Source: a virus
Strand: one strand, 5' to 3'
Length of the DNA: 20,716 nt
Virus record (IMG/VR): IMGVR_UViG_3300011258_001076
Coordinates: 1 to 20,716 of that record
Every line of letters starts with the position of its first letter. Positions within the stretch are counted from its first letter, which is position 1. The translations under genes and the position numbers were made by a program. The notes beneath the pieces were generated by a model. The model ran no database searches, had not been told where the DNA came from, and saw nothing but the letters and a program-made list of their open reading frames with translations. This document shows, one piece after another, positions 3,092 through 16,899 of the stretch.

Positions 3092-3104
3092 CGGGAGGCT
3101 CTCC

Positions 3105-3302
3105 TTAGATGCGGGCGATGTTCAGGCCCGTCTTCGGTGCCCCTGTGGTGTTCGTGCGGGGGATGCGGAGGGGGTTCTTCCCAGTGGGACTGGACGCTTT
3201 GGAGCGGCCCATGTTGATCCGGGGGACAAGTGGGGCATCGCGGCGTGGGGCCGGGGCCGATGCGGGTGTAGGTGTAGCTGGCATGCTGCCGCCCATAGAC
3301 AT
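3105..3302 (-). CDS. Putative tail assembly protein (T7 gp7.3-like), 65 aa
   Basis: The start is ATG 3302, chosen because AAGGAG stands 6 nt upstream; an in-frame TTG at 3317 lies within or before that site. The protein is small, Pro/Ala-rich and basic (PATPTPASAPAPRR), with a C-terminus reading GKNPLRIPRTNTTGAPKTGLNIARI when split as GKNPLRIPR ... GLNIARI. T7 gp7.3 has a comparable basic, low-complexity body and a conserved K-SL-V-R...GINI tail, and also lies just upstream of the portal. In T7 the protein is a virion component needed for tail assembly. The similarity is short, so the assignment rests on tail motif plus position. Confidence 0.6.
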   Translation of the reverse strand: MSMGGSMPATPTPASAPAPRRDAPLVPRINMGRSKASSPTGKNPLRIPRTNTTGAPKTGLNIARI

Positions 3303-3313
3303 GGCTGGCTCCT

Positions 3314-3544
3314 TCAACTGATGGGGTGGCTGGCTGCGTTCATCTCTTCGAGCAGGCGCAGAACACGCTCAACACCCTGCAGTGCGTGGAACTGGTCCGG
3401 GGCGAGCAGGCCGTTGTTTGCGGGGGGGATGTTGCCGGGGAAGACTTCGCGCATGTACGCGATCAGTTCGTCGCTGACCTCAGGTACCAAGCTCTGACGC
3501 TCGTCAGGCTGGGAGGAAGGGGCGTCGTCCAGGAAATCGGGCAT
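3314..3544 (-). CDS. Hypothetical protein, first gene of the structural cluster (76 aa)
   Basis: The frame starts ATG 3544 with AAGGAA about 7 nt upstream and ends at TGA 3314. The product is acidic (MPDFLDDAPSSQPDERQ...) with a C-terminal amphipathic stretch ALQGVERVLRLLEEMNAAS that should form a helix. I recognise no family. It is the first gene after promoter candidate D (+1 about 3627) and the leader hairpin at 3571-3596, and its end supplies the AAGGAG ribosome-binding site of the gp7.3-like gene. A longer in-frame extension to 3784 overlaps the DUF3310 gene and the promoter, so it was rejected. A virion or assembly role is inferred from location only. Confidence 0.65.
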   Translation of the reverse strand: MPDFLDDAPSSQPDERQSLVPEVSDELIAYMREVFPGNIPPANNGLLAPDQFHALQGVERVLRLLEEMNAASHPIS

Positions 3545-3570
3545 GAATAATTCCTTCTCTGTGGGGAAGC

Positions 3571-3596
3571 GAAAAGGGCCACCCGAAGGTGACCCT
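3571..3596 (-). terminator. Intrinsic-terminator-like hairpin with UUCG loop in the structural-gene leader
   Basis: On the minus strand AGGGTCACC-TTCG-GGTGGCCCTTTT forms an 8-bp stem (one T·G pair) capped by a C(UUCG)G tetraloop and followed by four U. This is the form of a Rho-independent terminator. It lies downstream of promoter candidate D and upstream of the gene starting at 3544, so it could end read-through from the replication genes, attenuate, or act as a processing/stability hairpin. Confidence 0.75.
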
Positions 3597-3623
3597 AAAC
3601 GAACCCAGACAGAAGCACTGTGT

Positions 3624-3645
3624 GTGCTATAGGGGGCGAAAAATG
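3624..3645 (-). promoter_or_regulatory. Candidate phage RNA polymerase promoter D (upstream of structural genes)
   Basis: The minus strand reads ATTTTTCGCCCCCTATAGCAC, with the proposed +1 G at 3627. The CCC-CTATAG-CA core matches the other three candidates (at about 14690, 14662 and 12052) and ends in TATAG as T7, SP6 and K11 promoters do. It is located just after the DUF3310 stop and before the structural genes, where a late (class III) promoter would be expected. CTATAG is palindromic, so strand was decided from gene direction and the shared upstream bases. Confidence 0.55.
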
Positions 3646-3653
3646 TCTGGAGG

Positions 3654-3917
3654 CTACAGAGTGGGTTTGTCCCGAAGCTGATTGATACGCATCTCCGCGT
3701 AGCGCCGCACCTTCTCAAGGTCCAACACCTCACTCTCGACTGCATCTCGACCATCGTACAGCTTGTGCCCAGCGCGGCACACATACTTCACGATGTTGCC
3801 AACATGGAACGGGAGGTCGTTCCGCATGATGAACTCGACAGGTTCGATGGTGAACCGGGTGTAGTGGCGGGGCCGAACTACAAGCTCTTGTTCTGGGCCA
3901 GTATCGTTGGCATCCAT
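3654..3917 (-). CDS. DUF3310 family protein (87 aa)
   Basis: The central block HYTRFTIEPVEFIMRNDL, followed by FHVGNIVKYVCRAGHK and a C-terminal DLEKVRRYAEMRI helix, is the DUF3310 signature. This short family is widespread in phages and often carelessly labelled nucleotide kinase. Its biochemical function is not established. ATG 3917 has AGGAG 8 nt upstream. The gene overlaps the end of the exonuclease by 40 nt and is the last gene before the candidate late promoter, so it closes the replication cluster. Confidence 0.85.
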   Translation of the reverse strand: MDANDTGPEQELVVRPRHYTRFTIEPVEFIMRNDLPFHVGNIVKYVCRAGHKLYDGRDAVESEVLDLEKVRRYAEMRINQLRDKPTL

Positions 3918-4759
3918 AGGCGGGGCTCCTTCTTGTTGAAATCATAATCAGATGCACGGAGGATGCGGGCCACGCGGGCCTGCTGGAGGGCGTAGGCTTC
4001 CGTGTACCCAGCCTTGGCGAAGAGAGAGACGATGCCTGACCACACATCCTCTGTCGGCATCTTGACCCACCGAATGTCCACCTCCCCCTTGCGCTTCCCG
4101 GACTTGAGGATGCGCTCTTCAGGGGTGAGGATGTAGGGGTCGTCGAGGAATGCACTCGCAACCTGCGGTCCCACTCCCGGACACCCTGTGTATCCATCGG
4201 TCGTATCCCCCATGAGGGTCTGGTACAGGTGGAACCGGTCAGCCTCTGCTTGGGTCACCTCGAGGATGCCGTCCTGAGGCTTCCCGTTATTGAAGTGGAA
4301 GCCGGGAATGGTGTGGAGGTCCTTGTCGATTGTGACGCATATCTTCTCACCCGTGACCACCTTGTCGGTCGTCATAAGGATGCCGAGGATATCATCACCC
4401 TCAAGTCCGGGCCTCTCCCACACCTCGTAGTTGTCGCGGAGATACTGCCGCACGAAGCCGAGTAGCATAGGCTTACGAACAGCCTTCCGGTTTCCCTTGT
4501 ATGTGGGGAGCACGGAGACCCGCCAGTTGGTGGCGTCCGTCAGGGCGATGATGATCCTATCCGCGCCACCAAGCTGCGTCTCCACGGTAGCATGGAGGGC
4601 ATCTTCAAGGGATCGCTCGGCATCACCGGGGTCAGCATGGAGGGTCCAGAGGGCACCGTCGTCGGTATCATCCTCCCCCCAGTTGGTGGCCCGTTCGACA
4701 CTGGCGGCGGCACGGTAAGCGTACACATCACCATCAATCAGGATTGTGCGATCAGTCAT
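3878..4759 (-). CDS. 5'-3' exonuclease, FEN/T7 gp6 family
   Basis: The 293-aa protein begins MTDRTILIDGDVYAYRAAAS, the N-terminal metal-binding strand of the FEN/5'-exonuclease superfamily. It continues with the catalytic acidic clusters ERPGLEGDDILG (about 115-126) and CVTIDKDLHT, and the helix-3-turn-helix DTTDGYTGCPGVGPQVA. T7 gp6 is 300 aa. It removes RNA primers and degrades host DNA to supply nucleotides, and also works in recombination. ATG 4759 overlaps the HNH gene stop (ATGA). A longer in-frame start at 4786 exists, but it would lie inside the HNH gene. Gene order gp5-(HNH)-gp6 follows T7. Confidence 0.93.
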   Translation of the reverse strand: MTDRTILIDGDVYAYRAAASVERATNWGEDDTDDGALWTLHADPGDAERSLEDALHATVETQLGGADRIIIALTDATNWRVSVLPTYKGNRKAVRKPMLLGFVRQYLRDNYEVWERPGLEGDDILGILMTTDKVVTGEKICVTIDKDLHTIPGFHFNNGKPQDGILEVTQAEADRFHLYQTLMGDTTDGYTGCPGVGPQVASAFLDDPYILTPEERILKSGKRKGEVDIRWVKMPTEDVWSGIVSLFAKAGYTEAYALQQARVARILRASDYDFNKKEPRLWMPTILAQNKSL

Positions 4760-5121
4760 GATTTCATCCACTCCTTCTTGACCCACTTCTTGTAGAACGC
4801 AGCGACCTGCGTAAGCTCCTGGACGGTTGCGTTGTTCTTGATGCGGTTTGCTCTGTTGGAGATGACCAGCACATTACCCGGCACATACCCCATCTCGGGG
4901 ATCACGCGGTCGAGCGAGGGGGAGAAGTCTGTTGCTCTACCCTGCCCGAACTCCAACACGCACCCCAGTACGGGACACCTCGCGGGGAGCAGGATATCCC
5001 CGAGGGTGATAGTGAAGGGGATGCCCTTTATGGTTGAACGAGCCTTGGCGGCAGAGAACATACGTTGGAGGGGGTTAGTGGGTTTCCGACCAGTTCTGTG
5101 CGTTGCCTTCGATACCTTCAC
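4756..5121 (-). CDS. HNH homing-type endonuclease
   Basis: The C-terminal two thirds matches phage HNH nucleases: a helical NPLQRMFSAAKARS lead-in, the CPVLGC segment, then SPSLDRVIPEMGYVPGNV followed by VISNRANRIKNNA. These freestanding nucleases make double-strand breaks and spread between phages. The gene is wedged between DNA polymerase and exonuclease, a common insertion point, and overlaps both. The start is uncertain. GTG 5121 (MKVSKATHRTGRK, GGAG 6 nt upstream, 121 aa) is preferred. ATG 5061 would give 101 aa with no visible ribosome-binding site. GTG 5202 gives 148 aa and is preceded by a full AAGGAGGT, but is nested 128 nt inside the polymerase. Confidence 0.82.
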   Translation of the reverse strand: MKVSKATHRTGRKPTNPLQRMFSAAKARSTIKGIPFTITLGDILLPARCPVLGCVLEFGQGRATDFSPSLDRVIPEMGYVPGNVLVISNRANRIKNNATVQELTQVAAFYKKWVKKEWMKS

Positions 5122-7177
5122 AGTCTGCTCCAAGCTCACACTTGAAGTTGAAGTATTCTCCGGTTTCGCGGGCAGCGATGGGTGACAGTCTCTCGATGAC
5201 ACGAGCTACCTCCTTGTTCTTGCAAATGATTTGAAGCTCGTCGTGGACCCACGCAACGATTGCGTAATCTCCATCCCAGCCATGCACAAAGCCCTCATCG
5301 CGCAGGGCCTTGTCGAGTTCGATGATCCACCGCTTGCATGCCAATGCGCCCGCAGACTGCAGCAGCGTGTTGAGGGAAGCGAACGCCTTGCGTACAGAGA
5401 CGAGGCGGCGGTCGAGCCCAAAGATGAACCCTGTCCTCTTCGCCTTCGCCTGCACCTTGTCGATCAGGGTCTTGAGCGCGGGGAAGCCAGCGAGGAAGTT
5501 GGCCTTGAGGCGCTTACCCAACGCCTTCATCATCGCCTCAGTGACCTGTCGCTTCCCACTGAAGAAGGCCGTGCGGATCGAGTTACCAAGCCCGAGGGCC
5601 TCTTCTCGGAGCGCGGCTTCATACAGGATGCGGCCAATCTTGAGGTCACCGGCCCCATAGAGGAACCCGTAGATGAACGTCTTGGCCGAGTTACGGAACA
5701 ACTCGTGGATCGGGTTCTCTGATCCATCCGGGTTCTTTCGCTCGGTACCCTCAGGGACGAGGCCGAGGGCAATGACGTTGGCCCAGTGGATATCACCTTG
5801 CAGGATCAGTTGACCGTAGAGCCCTCCGTCCCATGCAGCCATGAAGTGTGCGAGGCAGCGCAACTCGAGGCCACTCTTGTCTGTCCCCACCATGATCGCA
5901 TCAGGCCAGCGGCGCTTGACCGCCTCAGTGATGCCGAACAGGGAGCGGCACTCCTTCCCATAGAGAGCCTTGTTACCGGGTACCTGACCGACGTTGGGGT
6001 AGCTGTGGGTGGCTCGTCCTGTCACGGCGTTGTTCGTGTTGATCGACCCGTAGATGAAACCATCGCGGCATACCTTGAGCCACGCCTGGTTCCCCTCAGC
6101 CAACTGTCCGATCCTCTTCTGGAGTAGGAAGTATTCCGTAAGCTGCTTCGCCTCGGGCCAGTCGATCCCCGCGAGGACCTCTTCGTCCACCTTTGGTTTC
6201 CCTGCGGGGGTGAACTCCTTGGGCTTCCAGCCATACCGGACCTTGAGGCAGTGGGCGATGTGATCACGGGAGGCGGGGTTGAAGAAGACCAGCTTGAGCT
6301 TCGTCCAGGGCTCCCCCTTCACACGGTCCTGCTGGTCAGGGTCTTTGTATCTGACGGTGCGTGAGGGGTTCACGAGGCCTCCATCCTCGTACCAGAAGCC
6401 GAAGGTTTCCTTGAGTCCTGCCTCCAGTTCGTTACGCCGCTGTGCCAGTCTGGCGTACAGCGAACCTCCCCCTGCCTCATCGAAGGGGAACCCGTTGCGC
6501 TCGATCTGCGCACACAGGAGTGCTGTCCTGTGCTCAAGCTCGATGGCCATGGGTGGGTAGTTCTTGGCTGTACAGGTATCGTAGAGACGCTTGGTCACCT
6601 CAACATCCTGAACACAATAGTCCTGCATCTCGACAGACCAGTTGGCCCAGACGAGGCGGTTTATCTCGTCCATCTTTAGGGGCTTCTCCCCCCGCGCCTT
6701 GAAACCCTCCTTGATTTCTTCGGCCTTGTCCTTGGAGTAGTCCCCCTTCCAGCACCCGAGGCGGTAGCCCCAAGCCTCCAGCCCGTGGGACCCAATGAGT
6801 TTGCCGGGTAGCTTGCGCTTCTTGACGCGCCCGAAGTCACTGTCTTTGATATCCGACCAGATGAGGCGCGTGAGGACAAGGGTGTCCACAAGGTCAGCCG
6901 ATGGGGTGAACCACGGGTACACCTTGTGCAGCGCCGGTACATCGAACTTGATGATGTTGTGGCCAATCAGTTCGTCTGCCTCCATCATCATCTTGAGGCC
7001 CTCTTCCACGGAGGTGTAGTGCAGGCTCACGTCCCCATCCAGCGTCCACTTCACGGCGGGCTGGTCGCAGCATGAGGTCACCTTACCTGTGTCCCTATCC
7101 ATCAGGACGAGGGAATGCACCTTAGTAAGCTCGTCGAGCAGGCCATTGGTTTCGATATCAAAAATGTATGAGCGCAT
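5075..7177 (-). CDS. DNA polymerase, family A with 3'-5' exonuclease (T7 gp5-like)
   Basis: The 700-aa protein (T7 gp5 is 704) has all catalytic parts. In the exonuclease domain these are FDIET (D7, E9), HNIIKFDVPAL (D79) and YCVQDVEVTK (D191). In the polymerase domain they are motif A GTDKSGLELRCLAHF (D433), motif B FRNSAKTFIYGFLYGAG (R495, K499, Y503) and motif C VHDE (645-647). Y503 aligns with T7 Tyr526, which governs ddNTP acceptance. The thumb region about 265-310 (NPSRTVRYKDP ... FFNPASRDHI) is shorter than the T7 thioredoxin-binding insert, so use of host thioredoxin is uncertain. ATG 7177 has GAGAGG 7 nt upstream. It replicates the phage genome with the primase-helicase and ssDNA-binding protein encoded nearby. 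Confidence 0.97.
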   Translation of the reverse strand: MRSYIFDIETNGLLDELTKVHSLVLMDRDTGKVTSCCDQPAVKWTLDGDVSLHYTSVEEGLKMMMEADELIGHNIIKFDVPALHKVYPWFTPSADLVDTLVLTRLIWSDIKDSDFGRVKKRKLPGKLIGSHGLEAWGYRLGCWKGDYSKDKAEEIKEGFKARGEKPLKMDEINRLVWANWSVEMQDYCVQDVEVTKRLYDTCTAKNYPPMAIELEHRTALLCAQIERNGFPFDEAGGGSLYARLAQRRNELEAGLKETFGFWYEDGGLVNPSRTVRYKDPDQQDRVKGEPWTKLKLVFFNPASRDHIAHCLKVRYGWKPKEFTPAGKPKVDEEVLAGIDWPEAKQLTEYFLLQKRIGQLAEGNQAWLKVCRDGFIYGSINTNNAVTGRATHSYPNVGQVPGNKALYGKECRSLFGITEAVKRRWPDAIMVGTDKSGLELRCLAHFMAAWDGGLYGQLILQGDIHWANVIALGLVPEGTERKNPDGSENPIHELFRNSAKTFIYGFLYGAGDLKIGRILYEAALREEALGLGNSIRTAFFSGKRQVTEAMMKALGKRLKANFLAGFPALKTLIDKVQAKAKRTGFIFGLDRRLVSVRKAFASLNTLLQSAGALACKRWIIELDKALRDEGFVHGWDGDYAIVAWVHDELQIICKNKEVARVIERLSPIAARETGEYFNFKCELGADCEGIEGNAQNWSETH

Positions 7178-7214
7178 GGTGGGTCCTCTCTCTGGAGTGA
7201 CTGGAGGGGTATCC

Positions 7215-7583
7215 TCAGGCGTGGGTTGTGGTGACCCGTTCGATGCAGAGGATGTTCTTGGCAGGGTACTTCATCTCGTGGAGCAGAAGCCGCAGCGAGA
7301 GGGTGGTGATGCCCCCTTGGTAGTGCTTGAAGATGACACCCTCGGCGCGGGGGTGGTTCCATGTGGGTTCGAAGCCGCGCACTGTCATCACCTTGGGCAG
7401 GCACTGCGCTATGGCGGCGTCGTAGGCCGAGTTCATATGCGAGAGAGTGGCGCGGGGGTTGGACGCGCTGGAGTGCGCCGCGCCCCTCTCAGTTGTCATG
7501 GTGTGAGCGGGCACCCACGAGGGCCGATCTGCCAGCACGGCATACATCACAATGAAGATGAGGAAGAGCTCCAGAACCCTCAT
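7215..7583 (-). CDS. Hypothetical protein with N-terminal hydrophobic/signal segment (122 aa)
   Basis: The N-terminus MRVLELFLIFIVMYAVLADR has a 14-residue hydrophobic core followed by a VLA-D junction that could be a signal-peptidase site or simply a membrane anchor. The rest is mixed polar and basic (IERVTTTHA end) with no motif I recognise. ATG 7583 overlaps the stop of the preceding 108-aa gene (ATGA), so the two form a coupled pair between primase-helicase and DNA polymerase. T7 keeps several non-essential genes (4.3-4.7) at this place. Membrane location is inferred from the N-terminus only. Confidence 0.65.
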   Translation of the reverse strand: MRVLELFLIFIVMYAVLADRPSWVPAHTMTTERGAAHSSASNPRATLSHMNSAYDAAIAQCLPKVMTVRGFEPTWNHPRAEGVIFKHYQGGITTLSLRLLLHEMKYPAKNILCIERVTTTHA

Positions 7584-7906
7584 GCCCCTGCCCCCGGTGC
7601 GCGAAACTGGTCCGGGAACTCCGCGACAAGGTCATCGCTCCAATCGCTTCCCGCGATCCACACGGGTATCGCCGGGTACGCCTCGTGGAGCACGGAGAAT
7701 GCCACCTCTTGGGGGTTGATGGGGTCAGGCTCTAGGTCCTCTTCGAACCGCTCCTGGCGGAAGTCTGTGGGAGCATGCCCCCAGAAGCTCAGGATCATCC
7801 GCGGCTCTGGGACTTCGATTACATAGCCCCGCCGCATGTAACCGAGAAGGCGCTGGCTATCGAAGCTCATGATCGGAGTACCAGCAGGCATTTCATACTG
7901 TGTCAT
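7580..7906 (-). CDS. Hypothetical protein (108 aa)
   Basis: The product is acidic and aromatic-rich (SFWGHAPTDFRQERFEED, VWIAGSDWSDDLVAEFP) with no family I recognise. ATG 7906 is preceded by AAAGG 8 nt upstream, and the stop overlaps the start of the 122-aa gene by 4 nt. It is probably soluble. Its place between primase-helicase and DNA polymerase gives a middle-gene expression time but no function. Confidence 0.65.
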   Translation of the reverse strand: MTQYEMPAGTPIMSFDSQRLLGYMRRGYVIEVPEPRMILSFWGHAPTDFRQERFEEDLEPDPINPQEVAFSVLHEAYPAIPVWIAGSDWSDDLVAEFPDQFRAPGAGA

Positions 7907-7938
7907 GTTGGAACCTTTCCGGTTGCGGAGGGATTAAG

Positions 7939-9579
7939 TCAAAAGGGGATATGATCGTCCGAGGCGAACTCATCTTTGAACCCGTGGTCCTCAAGGGCCT
8001 CTTTAGGAACCTCGACCAGCCGTCCGGTTCCCCTGTCGTAGCGGAGGAAGAACGTCTGCCCCGTGGCGTTGCCCGTGTACCTGTCCTTGAGGATGCGGAA
8101 GGTGGTCGTGGTGCGGGTGAGGGGGTCCTCAGCCTGCTGATCCCGCTCGAGACCAAACATGAAGTAGGACCAGAAGCCAATCGAACGGGAGCCCTTGAAG
8201 TGGCGGATGGAAACGCGACCGCCCTCTTCGTGGGGTGTGCCGTCAGGGGTGGCAAGGTGGCTCACGAAGATGATCATGCAGCCAAGCTCTTTCGCCAAGC
8301 CCGCCATCTCTTTCATGATCTGCTCGAGGCTACCGCGCTCGTTGTCTGTATCTGCCATCGCCGTGAGGTGGTCGAGGTAGATGATCTTGTGGCCCAAGCT
8401 CAGGACCATATAGCGTATCTGTGTGGACACGGTGTCCCACTCAGTGTGCCCGAAGTTGTCGTAGAGGTGGAGCTTCCCGCGCACCTTCTCGATACCCTCA
8501 CGGAGTTCTTCCTCGGTCCACCCGTCGTCGGGTATGTGGAAGCGACGGTTCATGATCTTCCCGGCGAGGCGCTTCAACGTCTCGGCAGGCATCTGTTCCA
8601 GCATGATAACACCCACCGTCTGGTCGAGTGTGTCGATATCGTAGGCAATCTGCTCCATCAGCACGTCAGTCTTACCCACACCAGTGCCTGCACCGAGGCC
8701 GTAAATCTCCGAGTACCGCCGCCCGTAGGTAGCATTGGTCAGTGTCTCGTAGACCCAAGGCAGGCCCAGTTCGACAGGTCGCATGGCCTCTTCAGCCACG
8801 TCATTGACGGAGACGATACCATCCGGGGTCCACTGCTTCGCTTTCCAGACCTGATCAACAACCTCTCCTGAGGCACCCTTGAGTAGGCACTCATTGGCAT
8901 CCTTGAAGGGTAGCTGGGCAACGCGAGCGGTCCCAAAGGGTAGGACCCGCACAGCTTCCTCGATGGCAGCGCGGCCCGCATCGTCCATGTCGAACATCAG
9001 GATAACCTGCTCGTATCCCGAGACGAACTCGAGAGACGCTGCGATATCCTTGGCGGCACCGGATGCACCGTTCTTGAGGGACACTACGGGCCACTTGTTG
9101 TTCTGCAACTGGGACACAGTCATGCAGTCAATCTCGCCCTCGGTGATCACCAGCTTCTTGCCGGTGCCCGACCAGAGCCACTCCCCGTAGAGGCCTACCT
9201 CCCGAGGTGACCCGCGCCACGGCATATCCTTGTCACGGGTGCGCAGCTTCTGGGCCACTGGTCTGCCAGTCTTGTCCCTGTAGGTGGCGACTTGGACAGG
9301 TTGTCCCTTCCACGAGCCGATGCCGTAGTCGAAGAACTTGCACGTCTCGAGGGAGATACCCCGCGCATTTAGGGGGAGCACCTCAAAGTCAATCAGTTCA
9401 CTTGGGTTCTGCATGCGGTGCCCCTCCCTTGTTGGTTGTTCGTCGCTGTCTCCGGCCTCGTAATACTGACAGCCAAAGCAGTAGCCGTGGCCATCAGAGT
9501 ATCGGGCCAGGTTGTCCCGTGAGCCGCACGATGGACACGGCTCTTTCCCGATGTGGACGGAGTTGTCATCATGTGGCAT
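7939..9579 (-). CDS. DNA primase-helicase (T7 gp4-like)
   Basis: The 546-aa bifunctional protein starts with a Cys4 zinc finger (C15, C18, C34, C37), which reads template sequences for primer synthesis. The TOPRIM fold follows: KKLVITEGEIDCMTVSQ (E148) and LMFDMDDAGR (D197, D199). The hexameric helicase domain has Walker A GLGAGTGVGKT (K303), Walker B IIYLDHLT (D403) and FVSHLA (H441). The C-terminus is acidic and ends in Phe (DEFASDDHIPF); in T7 the equivalent acidic tail docks on DNA polymerase. T7 gp4A is 566 aa. ATG 9579 has GAGGGG 6 nt upstream, overlapping the end of the HTH gene. Confidence 0.97.
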   Translation of the reverse strand: MPHDDNSVHIGKEPCPSCGSRDNLARYSDGHGYCFGCQYYEAGDSDEQPTREGHRMQNPSELIDFEVLPLNARGISLETCKFFDYGIGSWKGQPVQVATYRDKTGRPVAQKLRTRDKDMPWRGSPREVGLYGEWLWSGTGKKLVITEGEIDCMTVSQLQNNKWPVVSLKNGASGAAKDIAASLEFVSGYEQVILMFDMDDAGRAAIEEAVRVLPFGTARVAQLPFKDANECLLKGASGEVVDQVWKAKQWTPDGIVSVNDVAEEAMRPVELGLPWVYETLTNATYGRRYSEIYGLGAGTGVGKTDVLMEQIAYDIDTLDQTVGVIMLEQMPAETLKRLAGKIMNRRFHIPDDGWTEEELREGIEKVRGKLHLYDNFGHTEWDTVSTQIRYMVLSLGHKIIYLDHLTAMADTDNERGSLEQIMKEMAGLAKELGCMIIFVSHLATPDGTPHEEGGRVSIRHFKGSRSIGFWSYFMFGLERDQQAEDPLTRTTTTFRILKDRYTGNATGQTFFLRYDRGTGRLVEVPKEALEDHGFKDEFASDDHIPF

Positions 9580-9589
9580 TGGTGGCCCC

Positions 9590-9823
9590 TCAGTCGTGGC
9601 TTGCGGGCATCATCCTGCCCTGTGGGTCCTTCTCAGCGATGTAGCGGGCATAGTTGCGGCCAGTGAGGGTCTGCCGTATCTCAGTCGTGATCGACCAGCC
9701 CTGCTTCTTCATGTCGAAGATGACACGGGGAAGCTGGGGCATGCGATAGAGGCCGGTTGCCTCCATCTGTGAAATCGTGAGACCTGAGTTGAAGTGGGCG
9801 GCGAGGGTCTGGGCGTGTGTCAT
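9590..9823 (-). CDS. Small winged-helix/HTH protein (77 aa)
   Basis: The layout MTHAQTLAAHFNSGLTISQMEATGLYRMPQ then PRVIFDMKKQGWSI followed by a basic wing resembles the short phage helix-turn-helix proteins of the HTH_39 type (N-terminal helices, then a recognition helix of the form L.RVIYDLR.QG). Such proteins are usually presumed DNA-binding, but their targets are unknown. The gene ends 10 nt before the primase-helicase start. Its start region follows the hairpin at 9864-9887. The ribosome-binding site (GAGAAG) is weak. Confidence 0.7.
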   Translation of the reverse strand: MTHAQTLAAHFNSGLTISQMEATGLYRMPQLPRVIFDMKKQGWSITTEIRQTLTGRNYARYIAEKDPQGRMMPASHD

Positions 9824-9863
9824 GTGATCTTCTCATTTGTTGAGGGCGCAAAGGCGCATCAGG

Positions 9864-9887
9864 CCCCCGGCCACGATAGGCCGAGGG
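9864..9887. other. GC-rich hairpin between amidase and HTH genes
   Basis: CCCCCGGCC and GGCCGAGGG pair over 9 bp (one wobble on the minus strand) around a 6-nt loop. On the gene strand it is followed by CCTGATG, without a U-run, so it is not a normal terminator for the genes. On the plus strand it is followed by TTGTTTGT. A processing or stabilising hairpin, or a terminator of antisense transcripts, are possible. Confidence 0.45.
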
Positions 9888-9901
9888 TTGTTTGTGGGGA
9901 G

Positions 9902-10336
9902 TTATGGGAGCGTATCGCGTACCCACGCACATACATCGAAGCTGGGGCATGTCGTCTTCGCACCGGGCACATCGCGATGGCCAATGACGGTGAGTACGTC
10001 CGGGTAGCGATCCTCAATGGCGAGGACCAGCCAACCTAGTGCTGACATCTGCGTGGATGTGAAGTTGTCCTCAGGACGGAGGTCGGCATCGACACCGCCG
10101 ACCAAGCAGACGCCAACGGATGCTGCGTCCGTACCAGCACCGCTGTGAGCACCTATCATGTGCTCATCACGGCCCTTCTCCACGGTACCGTCGCGTCGGA
10201 TTACCCAGTGATACCCAATGCGGAACATACCCCGCATGCGGTGCAGCCGATCAATCTCCCGCGCACCTATGTCCTGCGTGGGGACCGTCCCTGAGCAGTG
10301 GATGATGATGGCTGTGGTCTCAGGGCGCGATGCCAT
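9902..10336 (-). CDS. N-acetylmuramoyl-L-alanine amidase (T7 gp3.5 lysozyme-like)
   Basis: From ATG 10336 the product is 144 aa (T7 lysozyme is 151). It contains AIIIHCSGT (H13), GYHWVIRRDGTVEKGRDE (Y42), GVCLVGGVD and GHRDVPGAKTTCPSFD (H120, K127, C130). These give the zinc ligands His, His and Cys plus the catalytic Tyr and Lys of the T7-type amidase. It cuts the amide bond between muramic acid and L-Ala. In T7 the same protein binds and inhibits the phage RNA polymerase, which may also hold here. No signal peptide is visible, so it needs a holin. The start codon shares one base with the preceding gene's stop (TGATG). The longer in-frame extension to 10597 overlaps two genes and is out. Confidence 0.95.
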   Translation of the reverse strand: MASRPETTAIIIHCSGTVPTQDIGAREIDRLHRMRGMFRIGYHWVIRRDGTVEKGRDEHMIGAHSGAGTDAASVGVCLVGGVDADLRPEDNFTSTQMSALGWLVLAIEDRYPDVLTVIGHRDVPGAKTTCPSFDVCAWVRDTLP

Positions 10337-10482
10337 CAGGACCCCACCACCATCTGCCAGATAATCTCCAGCACGATGTAGGCGATAGGACCGCCGATGA
10401 ACACGATGAAGAGGATAAGGAGGGTGACAAGGCGTATCCAAAGCTGGCCGAAGTCCTGCGCTTTGAAGAGGAAGTTCAGCAT
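10336..10482 (-). CDS. Small membrane protein next to lysozyme (48 aa)
   Basis: Translation from ATG 10482 gives a 48-aa protein. It starts MLNFLFKAQDFGQ and has a strongly hydrophobic stretch from about residue 15 to 45 (LVTLLILFIVFIGGP, AYIVLEIIW), with a Gly-Gly-Pro break that would allow one long or two short membrane helices. It overlaps the end of endonuclease I by 7 nt, and its stop overlaps the amidase start. The tight coupling to the lysozyme gene suggests a lysis accessory or membrane role, possibly a small holin. That is inference, because no family motif is visible. Confidence 0.7.
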   Translation of the reverse strand: MLNFLFKAQDFGQLWIRLVTLLILFIVFIGGPIAYIVLEIIWQMVVGS

Positions 10483-11057
10483 GAGATGATCCTCTCAAGA
10501 GCAGCACGAGACTGCTCGTTGGGGGGCTCGTTGAGCCACGTTTCGGGGGGAAGTTTGTCAGCCCAGGGGAACCCGTTCTTCTCTGCCCACATCGCATATG
10601 TGGTGGAGGATGGAGGCTTCTTTCCGATGGACTTCAGGTGGATGAAGAACTCCGCTCGGGTTGCATCGAGCAGCCTCGTGGGGATGGGTCCTGCGCCATG
10701 CCCACTCGCTCGCAGCCAGTCCCGATGCTCACTCACCTTCTGTGTCGTGATGAAGGTCTTGGCATTCGAGAACACCAGCCGGATATCAAGCTCGGGGTGG
10801 GTACTCTTGACCATGATCATCTTCTGCCGGTCGTCGGTATCGAACCGGCCCTTGGTCTCGATGATGATCCCACTGTCCAAGAAGAAGTCGGGCGTGTACT
10901 TCCGGGTCTTCACGGGGGGGACGTAGGGTAGAGCATGGGCCTCATACGAGAAGCCCACACCCATGCTCTTGAGGTAGTCGGTGACAACATCCTCCAGCCC
11001 CGAGCGGACCCCCTTTGCCAAGAGGGCCGCTTGATGGGACTTAGAAGTTCTCCGCAC
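10476..11057 (-). CDS. Endonuclease I, Holliday-junction resolvase (T7 gp3-like), GTG start
   Basis: The core matches T7 endonuclease I in order: RSGLEDVVTDYLKSMGVGF, a YVPPVKTRKYTPDFFL segment with the catalytic Asp, IIIETKGRFDTDDR (catalytic Glu and Lys of the PD-(D/E)XK fold), HPELDIRLVFSNAKT, and a C-terminal FPWADKLPPETWLNEP. It resolves branched DNA and breaks down host DNA. The protein is 193 aa against 149 in T7. Most of the excess is an insert of about 40 residues after FSNAKT (WLRASGHGAGPIPTRLLD lies in it). The GTG at 11057 was chosen because AGGGGG lies about 7 nt upstream and an ATG before the core does not exist without deep overlap. It overlaps the ssDNA-binding protein gene by 17 nt. 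Confidence 0.92.
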   Translation of the reverse strand: MRRTSKSHQAALLAKGVRSGLEDVVTDYLKSMGVGFSYEAHALPYVPPVKTRKYTPDFFLDSGIIIETKGRFDTDDRQKMIMVKSTHPELDIRLVFSNAKTFITTQKVSEHRDWLRASGHGAGPIPTRLLDATRAEFFIHLKSIGKKPPSSTTYAMWAEKNGFPWADKLPPETWLNEPPNEQSRAALERIISC

Positions 11058-11778
11058 CGTCGTCCCCCTCTGGTGTTGGCTTGTCGAACTCATCGTCGTC
11101 GTCAGCGTCAGGGCCTTTCGGCGGCGAGGGGTCATACTCGTAACCCTCTTCCTCACCGAAGCCGTAGCTGTCCGCAGTGCCAGCGCCGCCGGACACGAGG
11201 GCGATGATCTGCACCGCATCGAGGTTGAGCTTGAGGCCGACACCACCGCTGCCCGAGATGAAGTACGGGGTTGGCTTGAAGCTGATCTTCCCCACGGTAC
11301 CGCCCCAGATGGCTGGGATGGTCTTCATGAGGCGACCCTTGGCATCAAACACAGGGACACTGCGGGACCACTCCTTGCCCTTCTTCGGGCCGCTCTTGAT
11401 GGTACCCCCCGCCTTGGTCTTGAACTTGAAGATGACGTCACCAGTCGGCTCTTCCGTCTCCTCGTCGTAGGTCTCGGTGTAGAGGTCGTTGACCTTCAGG
11501 CCCCCCTTACCATTCTCCTTCTCGAGGCGGCGGCGGCTGTCCACCTTCAGTTCCTTGAAGGCCTCATGAGCTTCCGCCAGTGCCTCGTCGAACAGCGGCT
11601 GGAGCTTCTTGATCATGAAGTCGAACTCCGGGCTGTCCTTCTTCAGGATCGCATTGACCTTGAAGCTCCCATCCGGGTCCGGGTGCTGCGTGGAACCGTA
11701 GTCCGGCTCGGTGATCTTCGGGTAGCTGAAGGTGACTCTGGGGGTGGTGATCTTCGGTGCATTGTAGCGGTATGCCAT
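11041..11778 (-). CDS. Single-stranded DNA-binding protein (T7 gp2.5-like)
   Basis: From ATG 11778 (GGAG 9 nt upstream) the product is 245 aa (T7 gp2.5 is 232). The N-terminus MAYRYNAPKITTPRVTFSYP and the central OB-fold region (KSGPKKGKEWSRSVPVFDAK, IWGGTVGKISFKP) resemble phage gp2.5 proteins. The C-terminus is a long acidic tail ending in Phe (DADDDDEFDKPTPEGD ... AENF), the hallmark of gp2.5, which uses its last aromatic residue to contact DNA polymerase and helicase. It coats ssDNA at the fork and promotes annealing. The longer start at 11832 lacks a better ribosome-binding site. Confidence 0.92.
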   Translation of the reverse strand: MAYRYNAPKITTPRVTFSYPKITEPDYGSTQHPDPDGSFKVNAILKKDSPEFDFMIKKLQPLFDEALAEAHEAFKELKVDSRRRLEKENGKGGLKVNDLYTETYDEETEEPTGDVIFKFKTKAGGTIKSGPKKGKEWSRSVPVFDAKGRLMKTIPAIWGGTVGKISFKPTPYFISGSGGVGLKLNLDAVQIIALVSGGAGTADSYGFGEEEGYEYDPSPPKGPDADDDDEFDKPTPEGDDGAENF

Positions 11779-11851
11779 GCGAATATTCTCCGGTAGGGGA
11801 TGTGCTGACCCACGCAAACGCGCAGCGGTCATGTGGATGGGTGGGTGCAGT

Positions 11852-12010
11852 TCAGTGGATCATGCCGAGACCAGCCGCGTGGTCCTCGATATCTTCAATC
11901 GTGATGCCCAGACGGTAGACCTCAAAGGCCACGTCCACGGACAGTGCGCAGGAGTTTGATGCGTAATCAGCGGCAGCGCGGTCGAGCAAGGCGGTTGCTT
12001 CAAGGTTCAT
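11852..12010 (-). CDS. Hypothetical protein downstream of promoter C (52 aa)
   Basis: ATG 12010 has AAAGGA 6 nt upstream. The product MNLEATALLDRAAADYASNS ... GLGMIH is 52 aa, acidic and probably helical (VAFEVYRLGITIEDIEDHAA), with a sequence suggestive of a small helical bundle. No family recognised. It is the first gene after promoter candidate C (+1 about 12045, leader about 35 nt) and sits between RNA polymerase and the ssDNA-binding protein, where T7 has genes 1.1-2, including gp2, the inhibitor of host RNA polymerase. Similarity to those was not seen. Confidence 0.65.
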   Translation of the reverse strand: MNLEATALLDRAAADYASNSCALSVDVAFEVYRLGITIEDIEDHAAGLGMIH

Positions 12011-12041
12011 CAGGGGTCCTTTCGGGGACGAAGCTTCGGTA

Positions 12042-12062
12042 CTGCTATAAGGGGAAACAATA
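12042..12062 (-). promoter_or_regulatory. Candidate phage RNA polymerase promoter C
   Basis: The minus strand reads ATTGTTTCCCCTTATAGCAG, with the proposed +1 G at 12045. Compared with candidate A (ATTGTTTCCCACTATAGAAG) it agrees at 17 of 20 positions. It lies between the RNA polymerase stop and the 52-aa gene, the site where T7-type phages place the first polymerase-dependent promoters. A hairpin-prone CGAAGCTTCG follows in the leader. Confidence 0.6.
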
Positions 12063-12090
12063 GGGGGAATGGTTCCCTCAGCGGATGCAT

Positions 12091-14613
12091 TCAGGCAAAA
12101 CAATAGTCACTGTCGAGGATCGCCTCGATATCCAGTGCGCCTGTAGTTGGTGGGGGCGGCAGTTTCGTGTGCCGCTTCGGGTCTACCTGCTCCTTCAGTT
12201 CCGCGATGAGACCCCCGATCACATCATTGTCTTGGTACATCTCCACGAACGCCTCGCGGATCAGCATGAAGAAGCGTCCCGTGTGCCCAGCGTGGACACC
12301 GAAGCTGTCATGGACGAGGGCGAAGGCATCCATACCCTCTGCTGCGGCGGTTGACACCACCATACGCAGATGACAAGCATCGAGAGAGTGGATGTAGTTT
12401 GGTGCGATGGCCTGTGCCTGTGCCCTCCTGTCCACCTTATCGCCCTCTTCGCTCAGGCTCACCTTGATCACAGAGCCTGCCATGAAGGTCTTCACCGTCC
12501 TGCTCTTTACTTCGCGGTAGCCCTGCAGAACCGGGAACCCATCAGGCACAGTCCAGCGCACGGGTAGGTCTTCAGCAGCAACAACCTTGGCCATAGCCTG
12601 CAGCCAGTCCATCGCCTCAGCCGCCTTGACCACCACCTGCCCGACTGCCTCGGCAATCAGGCGGGCCATGAACAACGATGCCTTGTACCCATCTCCTTCG
12701 AAGGGCCAGTGTGCCCCCTCGCTCAGATGCTTGCGGTATGCGGGGTAGAGGGTATCCGTTGAAACCTGGTCGCGGAACCCGAACTGTCGGGACCCGTAAC
12801 CGAAGGTCATCGTCGGTCTCTTGCAGAGGGATCGGGTGATACCGAAGGAGAGCCATTGTGTTGCGTGGTCTCGGCAGGCCTCATCTGCTTGATCATCGGC
12901 AACGTAGGCTTCGCATGCCTCGCGGACCTTGTCAGCCACGAGCGTGTATATGTCAGCGGGCTGGTCGGTAGGCACGAGGTTGACAGCACGTCCCCCAATC
13001 TCGTCGCGGAATGCGATGGAGAAGTGCTGGATACCAGAGCAGCTACCATCAAGGGCTACTGGTAGGTGGGATAGGAACTCCGAAGGCACATTACCAGCAG
13101 CTTCCCACTCAGCCAGTGATGCCCACTCGAAGCAAGCTGCCAAGAACTGGAACGGGCTGTCTGCCTCGGACCACCAGCGGTTTGTGTATGGGTCGCGGGC
13201 GCATGCGAGGATCGCGTCGTGGTTGTCCAGCACCCACTGGATGCGGGTGGCGAGTGGCTGCTTGTCCATCTTATCGAAGGCACCTGTGTTGGCCAGTTGA
13301 ACAGCCAACCACGTCCACCCATCACTCCCCAGGGGGACCCCCTCCGAGAACTGGAGCAGGGCCTTCATGTAGTCCGGGCCCTGTGGGTTGAAGCTGGGCA
13401 CCGCATAGATGCGGCCCCGGAAGTCCATCTGATACGGGAAGTACAACTTATCGAACCGGCTGTATTTCTCGGCTGTCTGGACAGAGATGCGGAACTGTAT
13501 CCGGCGACTGCGGTTCTCCCGGTTCAGTGCGTGAACCTTCGCGGCCTCCCCCCTCCACTGCTTCCGGGCGTCTTCGTTCGCGTCGATATCGAAGGGCCTG
13601 GGCGGCAGGTCCTCATCATGTCTGGGTGGAATGTTTCCCTCAGCGGAACCAATATCCCAAAGCTCGGACAGCACATCGAGGATGGCAGGGTTCACCGACC
13701 ATGCCGTCTCCTGTGCCGCGTTCAGTGCCGCATAGGTGCGCGTCAGGTCTGTAATCCCAAGCTCATCGAGGTACCCCCTGTAGCGGGTCTTCACGACACG
13801 AAGCGGGCGCACGAACTGAGACAGGTACCCACCACCTTGTGGCTGCGTCCATGCTGCGGGCGGTACGATCATCGGCTCATACAGTGGAGCCATTAGGGAT
13901 GCCGTATCGTTACGCTTCTCGATTTCCTCGAGGGTCTCCGGGGTGGGCACGAGGACCTTGCGGATGGCCTGAAGCTTACCCCGAACGCGGGTGGTGTGAT
14001 CCTGCACGGTGTCCAGCGCGACCAAGTTTGTATGCGCAAGCACAAGGTCCAGCATCTTCGACCCAACCTGATGCTGGGCCCGGACACCCCATGATTCCCA
14101 CTCCGGGGACATACGGTTTCCAATGACAGTGGCGACCTTGTGGGCCACACGATATGTGCCCTTCTTACCGACCTCCTTGCGCAGCCAGTGATACAGGCCC
14201 CGGTCAACATCACGGGCATCAGAGAAGCGTATCTCATCCTCAATCATCTGCCCGATCATGGTGGTGGTGCGGACGATAGGTGCGGCCTGTGTCAGTGCCG
14301 CTGTCACACAGCGCAGGGTGAGGTAGGCCAGTACATCGGGGTCAGCGTCCGCGATGTATCGAACGCTGGCATGCCGTCGCCCGGCCTTGCCGCTGGTGGC
14401 ATCAGCAATGAACCCAGCGATTGCTGTGGACAGGGCGCTCAGGTGGGACTTGATCAGTGCGGAACCGTAGGCCGTCTCATTCTCGGTACCACCAGCGCGG
14501 TGGCTTTCAACCTTGTCACCATAACGGGTGATCCCAAGCTCGGTCATACCAGCCTCGAGGATCATCTGCTGGGCGTAGAGGTTCACGTCGGGTGTGAGTG
14601 CGCGTGTCGTCAT
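12091..14613 (-). CDS. DNA-dependent RNA polymerase, single-subunit T7 type (gp1-like)
   Basis: The 840-aa enzyme (T7 is 883) has motif A PVALDGSCSGIQHFS (D522), motif B SLCKRPTMTFGYGSRQFGF (K598, Y606) and motif C ALVHDSFG (D769). The C-terminus ends DSDYCFA, like the T7 'foot' DFAFA. The promoter-reading specificity loop should lie about residues 705-738 (TFMAGSVIKVSLSEEG ... APNYIHS). It differs clearly from T7, so a different promoter is expected. It transcribes the phage middle and late genes. ATG 14613 has a weak AGGA about 9 nt upstream. Two of the four candidate phage promoters lie just upstream of this gene, as does a possible host promoter at 14788-14817, so both host-driven and self-driven expression are possible. 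Confidence 0.97.
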   Translation of the reverse strand: MTTRALTPDVNLYAQQMILEAGMTELGITRYGDKVESHRAGGTENETAYGSALIKSHLSALSTAIAGFIADATSGKAGRRHASVRYIADADPDVLAYLTLRCVTAALTQAAPIVRTTTMIGQMIEDEIRFSDARDVDRGLYHWLRKEVGKKGTYRVAHKVATVIGNRMSPEWESWGVRAQHQVGSKMLDLVLAHTNLVALDTVQDHTTRVRGKLQAIRKVLVPTPETLEEIEKRNDTASLMAPLYEPMIVPPAAWTQPQGGGYLSQFVRPLRVVKTRYRGYLDELGITDLTRTYAALNAAQETAWSVNPAILDVLSELWDIGSAEGNIPPRHDEDLPPRPFDIDANEDARKQWRGEAAKVHALNRENRSRRIQFRISVQTAEKYSRFDKLYFPYQMDFRGRIYAVPSFNPQGPDYMKALLQFSEGVPLGSDGWTWLAVQLANTGAFDKMDKQPLATRIQWVLDNHDAILACARDPYTNRWWSEADSPFQFLAACFEWASLAEWEAAGNVPSEFLSHLPVALDGSCSGIQHFSIAFRDEIGGRAVNLVPTDQPADIYTLVADKVREACEAYVADDQADEACRDHATQWLSFGITRSLCKRPTMTFGYGSRQFGFRDQVSTDTLYPAYRKHLSEGAHWPFEGDGYKASLFMARLIAEAVGQVVVKAAEAMDWLQAMAKVVAAEDLPVRWTVPDGFPVLQGYREVKSRTVKTFMAGSVIKVSLSEEGDKVDRRAQAQAIAPNYIHSLDACHLRMVVSTAAAEGMDAFALVHDSFGVHAGHTGRFFMLIREAFVEMYQDNDVIGGLIAELKEQVDPKRHTKLPPPPTTGALDIEAILDSDYCFA

Positions 14614-14652
14614 GTGTCGCTGTCCTAACCTTAAGTAACCTTTGGGGGGACT

Positions 14653-14673
14653 GGGCTATAGGGGCACGAAACC
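14653..14673 (-). promoter_or_regulatory. Candidate phage RNA polymerase promoter B (weaker match)
   Basis: The minus strand reads GGTTTCGTGCCCCTATAGCCC, with the proposed +1 G at 14656. It keeps the CCCCTATAG core, but the upstream TTTC is displaced by about 3 nt relative to A and C. It lies about 27 nt downstream of candidate A, in the leader of the RNA polymerase gene. Confidence 0.4.
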
Positions 14674-14679
14674 CCCAAG

Positions 14680-14699
14680 CTTCTATAGTGGGAAACAAT
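14680..14699 (-). promoter_or_regulatory. Candidate phage RNA polymerase promoter A (upstream of RNA polymerase)
   Basis: The minus strand reads ATTGTTTCCCACTATAGAAG, with +1 G at 14683. The 11-mer CACTATAGAAG is identical to the 3' part of the SP6 promoter, and the whole site matches candidate C closely. It would produce a 70-nt leader before the RNA polymerase gene. Confidence 0.6.
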
Positions 14700-14944
14700 G
14701 TGTCTCAGTGGTGGGGAAGAGTTGCGCTGAGGGGACCATCTGATAGCTGGTAAAAGCCCAGCGATATCAACAGAACTTGTGCCAGATATGATACCTATCC
14801 TCTTGCGGATGGGTCAGGTCACAGGATGCGAGTAGTTTTTAAGTCCGCATACAGGGGCATAAGGTGCTGTTATCGCTGGGCTTTAGGTGTTCGCGGGTCA
14901 CAGCCAGATTGACCTACGTCACAGGTCAAGTCACAGGTGTGACG
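14700..14944 (-). other. Repeat-rich intergenic region: candidate attP arm region
   Basis: No gene is seen between the RNA polymerase start and the tRNA (14629-14944). The right part holds four GTCACAG copies (14818, 14897, 14918, 14930), the palindrome GTCACA-GG-TGTGAC (14930-14943) touching the tRNA 3' end, and TTGACCT/AGGTCAA arms (14909-14915, 14923-14929). A perfect 14-bp inverted repeat lies at 14753-14766 and 14871-14884. Clustered short repeats beside an integrase and a tRNA are what arm-type integrase binding sites look like. Function is inferred. Confidence 0.55.
14788..14817 (-). promoter_or_regulatory. Possible host sigma-70-like promoter for RNA polymerase gene
   Basis: On the minus strand CTGACC (14817-14812) and TATCAT (14793-14788) are separated by 18 bp and match TTGACA/TATAAT at 4 and 5 of 6 positions. 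A T7-type phage needs a host promoter to make its first polymerase. The site lies between the arms of the 14-bp inverted repeat, which could make it controllable. Confidence 0.35.
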
Positions 14945-15028
14945 TGGTGCCCGAGGCGGGACTCGAACCCGCACACCTATCGGCAGGGGTGTTTAAGACC
15001 CCAGCGTCTACCATTCCGCCACTCGGGC
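14945..15028 (-). tRNA. tRNA-Leu (anticodon UAA), complete with encoded CCA; probable attP core
   Basis: The 84-nt minus-strand sequence folds fully. The acceptor stem is GCCCGAG/CTCGGGC, with discriminator A and CCA. The D stem is GCG/CGC with a GGTAGA-type loop. The anticodon stem GGGGT/ACCCC holds loop CTTAAAC, giving anticodon TAA. There is a 13-nt variable arm and a T stem GCGGG/CCCGC with loop TTCGAGT. All stems are perfectly paired. It lies about 25 nt downstream of the integrase stop. Temperate T7-like phages often integrate into tRNA-Leu. Because the gene is complete, it could be both a functional phage tRNA and the attachment core. Confidence 0.95.
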
Positions 15029-15053
15029 CACGCGGTACTCGTAGCACGACACA

Positions 15054-16103
15054 TCACTGTTGTGCATGCCTTTCGTTGAGCGCGGCGACCGCGTCCGTGA
15101 AGGCATCAGGCCCGAGGTGGGCGTATCGCATGGTCGTCTCGATGGTCTTGTGCCCCATCCACTTCTGGACAGTCACGAGGTGGATACCTGCCTGTATCAG
15201 GCGCGAGCAGCAGGTGTGGCGGCAGGCATGGAACACCGCGTCCGTATCGACCTCGATGCCATACGCCGTGCGCCACTTGCGGAACATACGGGACACATGG
15301 GAGGGCGTCAGGTGGTCCTGAAAGACCACGCCCGAGGCCACCCTGCCCAGCGCCAGTGTATCCCACGCATGCCTCGCTCTGGACGTGAGGGGCACCGACC
15401 GGGGTGCGTCGGACTTGGACGCCCAGACGTGCAGCAGGTTGGTCTGAGGCACATAGTCCCGCACCTGTAGTGCCCGCAGTTCCCCCGCACGGAGGCCGGT
15501 GTCCATCGCGAGGGTCACGAGGTAGGCTAGCTCGGTCTCCCCCGTGGTGCGGAAGTAGGCGAGCATGTGCTCTTCTTCCTCCCTCGAGTAGTATCGCAGG
15601 CGTCCCGCATACTCCTTCCGCTTGGGGAGCAGGGGCTTTCGGGGAATGATCTGATCAGCCTCAGCCACGCCCAGCATCTTGCCGAGAGCAGCCATCTTCC
15701 GATTGATCGTGCCCGGTGCCGAGCCTCTATCAGACCACTCATCACAGACCCTGCTGATATCAGCACTGGTCAGGGTGCGAACGTCACACCTCTCCCCCAA
15801 GGTCTCGACCCATGCCTGCCCGTTGATGCGAGCAGTCCGCTCACCCTTGGTGCCCTGCCAGTAGAGACGGAAGGTGTGATCGAAGAGTGCCCCGAGGTTG
15901 CAGAGGTTGTTCTGCTGGTCGTCGATCCGGCCCCGCCTGGCGGATACGGATGGGGTTATTGTCTCCCCTCGGATCAGGGCAGCACGGAAGTCAGCCGCGA
16001 CCGCCTCTGCCTCCGCCTTTGTGGGGAAAGATACGCGAGGTGCGCGCTCACCCTTGTATGTAACGTCCACCTGCCATGTGCTTCCGCGTTGTCGTACTGC
16101 CAT
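15054..16103 (-). CDS. Tyrosine-family site-specific integrase
   Basis: The 349-aa recombinase has a short N-terminal arm-binding-like domain (MAVRQRGSTWQVDVTYKGER), a core-binding helical domain at about 65-155, and the catalytic domain. Catalytic residues are R205 in DTGLRAGELRAL, K230 in ASKSDAPRSVPL, H292-x-x-R295 in HACRHTCCSRL, H318 in WMGHKT and the nucleophile Y327 in TMRYAHL. All six are present. It would integrate the phage at a tRNA, most likely the tRNA-Leu copy that follows its stop. ATG 16103 has GGAG 7 nt upstream. It begins 4 nt after the regulator gene ends, so the two are co-transcribed. Confidence 0.97.
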   Translation of the reverse strand: MAVRQRGSTWQVDVTYKGERAPRVSFPTKAEAEAVAADFRAALIRGETITPSVSARRGRIDDQQNNLCNLGALFDHTFRLYWQGTKGERTARINGQAWVETLGERCDVRTLTSADISRVCDEWSDRGSAPGTINRKMAALGKMLGVAEADQIIPRKPLLPKRKEYAGRLRYYSREEEEHMLAYFRTTGETELAYLVTLAMDTGLRAGELRALQVRDYVPQTNLLHVWASKSDAPRSVPLTSRARHAWDTLALGRVASGVVFQDHLTPSHVSRMFRKWRTAYGIEVDTDAVFHACRHTCCSRLIQAGIHLVTVQKWMGHKTIETTMRYAHLGPDAFTDAVAALNERHAQQ

Positions 16104-16107
16104 TACA

Positions 16108-16458
16108 TCACTCCACTATATCCAACAACTCACGCACCAACGCACGACCCTTCTGGGTCAGCGTCAGGACGCGGCGTCGTCGATCCATCGGGTCTGTATC
16201 GTTGACCACGAGGCCCAAGCCGGGGACCTTGTACTTCTTCTCTGCACTCAGCAGCGCCACGTTCCGTGATGCCGTTGAGATGGCAAAGCCGAAGCGTTCA
16301 GCGACATCCTGCACACTGCATCCGGCATTTTGCGCGACGTAGATGAACACTGCGTAGCTGTGGACCTGTGTCTCTCCTGATACCCGCGTGAGCGCGTCCA
16401 GGATACGAAGCACCGTCTTGGACTTTTTCGCCTCGTCTTTGGTCAACTGTACAGACAT
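16108..16458 (-). CDS. MarR-like winged-helix regulator, candidate lysogeny regulator
   Basis: The 116-aa product has a helix-rich N-terminus and a winged-helix DNA-binding core. The turn is CSVQDVAERFGFAISTASRNVALLS (split: SVQDVAERFG, then ISTASRNVALLS). A wing DTDPMDRRRRVLTLTQKG follows, with the conserved Asp-x-Arg-x-x-x-x-LT pattern of MarR proteins. The C-terminal helix (GRALVRELLDIVE) would dimerise. No other repressor is visible in the window, and the gene stands directly before the integrase, so it may control integration or lysogeny. It is shorter than a typical MarR (about 140 aa). ATG 16458 has only a weak GGGA upstream. Confidence 0.82.
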   Translation of the reverse strand: MSVQLTKDEAKKSKTVLRILDALTRVSGETQVHSYAVFIYVAQNAGCSVQDVAERFGFAISTASRNVALLSAEKKYKVPGLGLVVNDTDPMDRRRRVLTLTQKGRALVRELLDIVE

Positions 16459-16472
16459 TTTCCCATTCCCGT

Positions 16473-16625
16473 TTAGGTCTTAGACAGGACAAGCTCCCAT
16501 CGACCGGTGCTTAAGATAACATTCCCTTGCGTCACCTTCTCAAAGAAGGGGGTGTCTATGCAAGCGGAATGGTGCCGCAGCAGGAGGGCTTCACGCCCAC
16601 AGATGCGGAGGTCCAGTATAATCAT
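16473..16625 (-). CDS. Small hypothetical ORF before the regulator (50 aa)
   Basis: The frame from ATG 16625 (MIILDLRICGREALLLRHHS ... ELVLSKT) ends 14 nt before the regulator start. Upstream alternatives at TTG 16667 and ATG 16658 fall in a TATAAT box and are less likely. The ribosome-binding site (AGAGAG) is weak. The product is basic, with no motif I recognise. Coding status is uncertain, and it could be a leader. Confidence 0.4.
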   Translation of the reverse strand: MIILDLRICGREALLLRHHSACIDTPFFEKVTQGNVILSTGRWELVLSKT

Positions 16626-16656
16626 AGTAACTCTCTCTGTATGCACTTCTTGCGTC

Positions 16657-16734
16657 ATTATAGTCAAACAGTACCAATGACTGTAGTAATCTCAGGTACT
16701 CACACTAACTCACCCCCCCTGCACACCGTGCAGG
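16657..16734 (-). promoter_or_regulatory. Promoter/operator-like region of the lysogeny module
   Basis: On the minus strand a perfect TATAAT lies at 16662-16657. The best -35 at 17 bp (TACAGT) is weak, which suits an activated or repressed promoter. Upstream lie two inverted repeats: AGTACC/GGTACT (16670-16675 and 16695-16700) and the 7-bp perfect CCTGCAC-ACC-GTGCAGG (16718-16734). They have the size of sites for a dimeric winged-helix protein such as the regulator encoded just downstream. Confidence 0.5.
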
Positions 16735-16757
16735 TCTCTCGCCGTAGGTCTAGTATG

Positions 16758-16895
16758 TTATTGTGCATAGGTGCTATGCGCCCATGCTATAGCCTTCTTC
16801 TCGGCCCTATCAGCCTTCTCGTAGTTCCTGCCATGATTGAACACCTCGTCCAGCAGCGGGAGCAGGTAAAAGGCTTTGTCTTCAGCATAATACAT
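16758..16895 (-). CDS. Small hypothetical protein (45 aa)
   Basis: ATG 16895 opens a 45-aa frame starting MYYAEDKAFYLLPLLDEV and ending WAHSTYAQ, closed by TAA 16758. The composition (amphipathic helices, Lys/Glu pairs such as EKADRAEKKA) is protein-like and soluble. AAGGG sits directly before the start, closer than usual. It begins 4 nt after the previous gene ends, continuing a chain of tightly packed small genes. No family recognised. Confidence 0.65.
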   Translation of the reverse strand: MYYAEDKAFYLLPLLDEVFNHGRNYEKADRAEKKAIAWAHSTYAQ

Positions 16896-16899
16896 CCCT

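Follow-up and report, generated by a model that had tools for sequence, protein, structure and literature searches.

Genetic organization of the fragment

The uncultivated virus fragment IMGVR_UViG_3300011258_001076 is T7-like and 20,716 bases long, and this whole stretch is referred to below as the window. All of its annotated genes are on the minus strand and follow the T7 order, from the early genes and a pentapeptide-repeat protein through a MarR-like regulator, an integrase, a tRNA-Leu and the RNA polymerase (RNAP) to the genes for SSB, endonuclease, amidase, primase-helicase, DNA polymerase, exonuclease, portal and assembly protein. The half of the genome encoding capsid, tail and terminase is outside the fragment. 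The genes around the RNAP are as follows:

12091..14613, minus strand: single-subunit T7-type RNA polymerase, 840 aa (PHROG 414 at 5e-258; alignments)
14945..15028, minus strand: tRNA-Leu (TAA), complete gene, between the integrase and the RNAP
15054..16103, minus strand: tyrosine integrase
16108..16458, minus strand: MarR-like transcriptional regulator of the lysogeny module (PHROG 9665, transcriptional regulator)

The profile of the RNAP matches T7 RNAP structures at about 1e-253, and the MarR-like gene is 37% identical to the MarR gene of LUZ100 as analysed using tblastn. The MarR regulator, the integrase and the tRNA-Leu adjoin the RNAP, which is the gene arrangement of the LUZ100 group of integrase-bearing temperate T7-like phages. 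The tRNA-Leu is possibly an attachment-site remnant, perhaps captured at integration. Between it and the RNAP there is a 20-nt inverted repeat (90% identity, arms 92 nt apart, 14753-14772/14865-14884), which brackets 14788-14817, the one stretch of bases 1-20000 that matched a sigma70-like promoter; in the pre-RNAP regions of 16 relatives, this long inverted repeat had no counterpart. In the early region, the pentapeptide-repeat protein (ADLTGADL..., 17303-17635) adjoins a DNA methyltransferase (17648-18415). Moreover, two early genes share an almost identical leader, some 95 nt long (18693-18789 and 19639-19737), and its long hairpin stays paired though both arms differ between the copies. 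Near the right end, tandem repeats of CAGTCCACCCT and CGTCCTCCCCGCGCAGCTTGAA occupy 20470-20610, possibly close to the genome terminus.

Repeated sites in the intergenic gaps

The sequence-only reading had proposed four minus-strand sites as promoters of the phage's own RNAP. All four sequences are present on that strand and in intergenic gaps:

14683..14699, minus strand: site 1, ATTGTTTCCCACTATAG, predicted +1 at 14683, about 67-70 nt upstream of the RNAP start codon
12045..12061, minus strand: site 2, ATTGTTTCCCCTTATAG, predicted +1 at 12045, about 30 nt past the RNAP stop
3627..3643, minus strand: site 3, TTTTTCGCCCCCTATAG, predicted +1 at 3627
14656..14672, minus strand: site 4, GTTTCGTGCCCCTATAG, 27 bp downstream of site 1, one base off the core

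The core CCC(A/C)(C/T)TATAG (CCCMYTATAG), which had been ascribed to all four, has three matches in the fragment, all on the minus strand; the stretch 14653-14673 reads GCCCCTATAG and misses it by one base, so the number of sites sharing the core is corrected to three. Site 2 precedes a small ORF and the SSB gene, and site 3 has a DUF3310-like ORF on one side and the portal (late) region on the other. Thus a gene-oriented repeat of 17-20 bp (sites 1-3, all in gaps) is found upstream of middle and late genes, and strong matrix matches were found neither in the early region nor on the plus strand in the gaps. As had been noticed, the two best sites are alike beyond the core: sites 1 and 2 are identical at 15/17 and 17/20 positions. 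This near-identity is limited to them, site 3 having 12/17 positions in common with site 2. At every site TATA is followed by G, that is, an A/T-rich melting region at -4 to -1 and a purine start. The caution that CTATAG is palindromic is borne out by its four sense and four antisense occurrences, and the strand assignment therefore depends on the CCC flank.

Promoter slots in related phages

Among the promoters of the phage LUZ100, which have been mapped by ONT-cappable-seq, are ones before and after the RNAP and others downstream of the amidase gene and upstream of the portal gene (PMC10134795). The repeat search used here recovers these mapped promoters, which serves as a positive control. 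In the uncultivated phage G001, with an RNAP 51% identical to that of the window, the search found five identical 18-mers TAACCCACACAGTAGGAT, including ones before the RNAP, after the RNAP and before the portal gene, and in L111, likewise uncultivated, which has the closest polymerase (53%), AATTAACCCACACCTTTGGA occurs both before and after the RNAP. The slots before and just after the RNAP are thus occupied in LUZ100, G001 and L111, and the before-portal slot in LUZ100 and G001. Site 1 has the slot of phi1 in LUZ100, 16080 in G001 and 42 in L111, site 2 that of phi2/phi3, 18857 and 2886, respectively, and site 3 that of phi6 in LUZ100 and 28131 in G001, so that the three sites fill three of the four slots known from relatives. 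The fourth slot, after the amidase, is occupied in LUZ100, G001 and many relatives; in the corresponding gap of the window (9824-9901) no candidate site was found, the best score there being no better than in shuffled sequence.

In addition, by the same criterion a repeat stands before and after the RNAP in 44 other records. Judged by eye, the repeat resembles a promoter in about 37 of them but not in the others, such as L150, L157, L159, L170, L173 and L183. A search with the portal protein for closer relatives found none, and a genome search with the RNAP returned only relatives at 30-32%, which were left aside. An exact scan of IMG/VR for ATTGTTTCCCNNTATAG gave 85 matches, which we take as chance because none is near a related RNA polymerase. 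The core of LUZ100 and G001, CCACACAG, has one match in the window, inside a gene, which is no more than chance.

Statistical support and chance resemblance

It could be asked whether the sites are a chance resemblance, in which two intergenic stretches happen to be similar and the TATAG occurrences are unrelated. Some single tests are indeed weak: the best 17-mer pair between any two gaps is sites 1 and 2, with 13 of 400 shuffles as good, and the best 20-mer shared by the 350 nt before the RNAP and everything downstream is equalled in 55/500 shuffles, which is not significant by itself. This last search uses no motif, and it returns the pair of site 1 and site 2. The best 20-mer pair between any two gaps is again sites 1 and 2 (3/400 shuffles as good), and the best 20-mer common to the 350 nt before the RNAP and the 400 nt after its stop is matched in 5/500. 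For CCCMYTATAG the shuffles give an expectation of 0.10 and never reach three. Furthermore, when a matrix is built from sites 1 and 2 alone, site 3 outscores every other position on either strand and lies in the slot predicted from other phages, while site 4 is sixth among the non-training matches, beneath several in coding regions; the within-slot p values are 0.012 for site 3 and 0.014 for site 4 (in the slot between site 1 and the RNAP). Patterns common to at least three of the four relative-derived promoter slots number 15, against a shuffle mean of 0.55, and only 4 of 2000 shuffles reach 15; the antisense count of this test is uninformative, because reverse-complementing preserves the number of shared patterns. 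Since site 3 was found without being used, the slot pattern is rare in shuffles and a residue of the polymerase loop independently predicts the C at -8 (see below), we consider chance resemblance very unlikely.

The specificity loop of the polymerase and base -8

The window RNAP has the specificity loop SRTVKTFMAGSVIKVSLSEE. The expectation of a distinct promoter from a loop unlike that of T7 agrees with the alignments, in which the loop also differs from those of the nearest relatives, L111 and G001. In T7 RNAP, Q758 contacts the base pair at -8 (PMC5937735). Among the relatives, the equivalent residue covaries with base -8, Lys or Arg going with C and Tyr or Phe with G: with the -8 register set by hand, C is at -8 for 5/6 of the Lys/Arg RNAPs and 0/12 of the others (Fisher p 0.0007; non-redundant RNAPs, leaving out the window and also L005, whose repeat is maybe no promoter). 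The exceptions are SP6 (Lys, A at -8) and L155 (Arg, A). Several independent changes of loop and -8 base are seen on the tree, and sister pairs change together, for example L112 (K/C) versus BB8 (Y/G), L123 (R/C) versus L139 (F/G), L132 (K/C) versus L143 (F/G), and the window (K/C) versus L111 and G001 (V/A). The pairing extends to the core as a whole, the loop INGKL-VYLTM going with GGTTGCACAATTGGA, GSR-VV or GGSR-HLL with CCACAC, GKV-IKL (YIMV22061) and GRV-MKL (L156) with AACCCCCACTTATA, and GSV-IKV of the window with TTTCCCACTATAG. The window has Lys at the Q758-equivalent position and C at -8 in every site, and its core bases are thus consistent with its specificity loop in the hand-set register. 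The HMMER alignment to T7 puts the loop residue one position earlier; hydrophobic and variable residues alternate, which speaks for the one used here as the probable equivalent of 758.

This covariation also bears on the idea that a phage regulator, for instance the MarR-like protein, uses the sites as operators, which would leave it unexplained. For an operator speak the palindrome CTATAG and the position of site 1, in the region where, in LUZ100, a MarR protein has been proposed to act. However, the palindrome is confined to CTATAG, the conserved CCC and ATTGTTT flanks being one-sided, and sites 2 and 3 precede middle and late genes, where relatives carry polymerase promoters. We therefore regard operators as highly improbable.

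Leaders, hairpins and site 4

Site 3 is followed by a strong terminator, beginning about 31 nt beyond the predicted +1:

3575..3596, minus strand: intrinsic terminator, AGGGTCACC-TTCG-GGTGGCCCTTTT

The same order of promoter and hairpin is found in LUZ100 (phi4/T6), G001 (21021) and L007 (10350). Site 4 is within a predicted hairpin, as its 3' arm. This arm and the hairpin after site 3 could point to a role of the sites in RNA leaders or RNA processing in place of promoter function. Such a role is hardly credible, since sites 1-3 are upstream of predicted hairpins and not inside them, the leader following site 1 is no better folded than shuffled sequence (z -1.06), and the leader following site 2 is unstructured (z -0.38). 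As for site 4, a weak tandem promoter copy is conceivable because L111 has two copies 24 bp apart, and we put this forward as a tentative prediction, with odds somewhat below even; it may simply be the 3' arm of the leader hairpin.

A proposed transcription scheme

The synteny with LUZ100, the motif-free rediscovery of the sites and the covariation of loop and promoter support the proposal of phage promoters, with 14653-14673 doubtful. We estimate at about 90% the probability that the phage's own T7-type RNA polymerase uses sites 1, 2 and 3 as promoters and transcribes from them leftward, in the direction of the genes. This estimate was drawn from the observed sequence, position, statistics and covariation with relatives, and the binding of the polymerase, its start point and direction and the strength of each promoter are predictions from them. 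In each site, an A/T-rich part around -16 to -10 would be followed by a C-rich core (C at -9, -8 and -7; specificity core near -12 to -5) read by the specificity loop, then by TATA at -4 to -1 as the melting region and by G as the start at +1. The host polymerase would transcribe the early genes and give rise to the first RNAP, which could then transcribe its own gene from site 1, as proposed for LUZ100, the replication genes from site 2 and the late virion genes from site 3. It is also possible, though on balance we doubt it, that the RNAP activates itself via site 1 within a lysis-lysogeny switch, one that would be entered through the host-type promoter candidate (14788-14817), subject to repression.

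This kind of system is already known, and the promoter sequence, as far as we have checked, is new. The predicted polymerase-promoter pair, unlike those of T7, SP6 and LUZ100, could be useful as an orthogonal transcription tool. Furthermore, the slots before and after the RNAP, taken together with the specificity loop, allow promoters to be read from the sequence of uncultivated T7-like phages. The use of phage genomes to decode T7-like promoter specificity, with engineering in view, has reportedly been published already, by Zhu and colleagues in 2025.

Comparison with known systems

The Pseudomonas phage LUZ100, with promoters phi1-phi8, is similar to the window in the slots before the RNAP, after the RNAP and before the portal gene (PMC10134795), in the gene order, where MarR, integrase and tRNA-Leu precede the RNAP, and in the pairs of promoter and subsequent terminator. 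The main differences are that its core is AATTACCACACAG..TATGGA versus TTTCCC..TATAG in the window, that its polymerase is 38.5% identical to that of the window, and that its promoters are mapped while those of the window are predicted. A tRNA-Leu near the integrase is common to LUZ100 and the Limnohabitans phage YIMV22061. In the latter and in L156, the same search found the predicted promoters AATTAACCCCCACTTATA, which resemble those of the window in the CCCAC core and the TATA part, as do their polymerases in the Lys at the Q758-equivalent position; they differ in having AACCC upstream of CCCAC versus GTTT in the window, and the polymerases are 40-42% identical. G001 and L111, with the predicted promoters TTTAACCCACACAGTAGGAT and AATTAACCCACACCTTTGGA, respectively, have the closest polymerases (51-53%) and the same slots, but another core, which matches another loop (GSR-VV). 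The T7/T3/SP6 class (core CACTATAG) shares with the window the TATA at -4 to -1 and the G at +1, and the likeness to SP6 that had been pointed out holds, the 11 bases CACTATAGAAG being present at 14680-14690, in site 1, and in the SP6 promoter. Unlike in T7 and SP6, the specificity part from -12 to -8 is TTTCC in the window, and unlike that of T7, the loop is without an equivalent of Arg756 in the alignment used.
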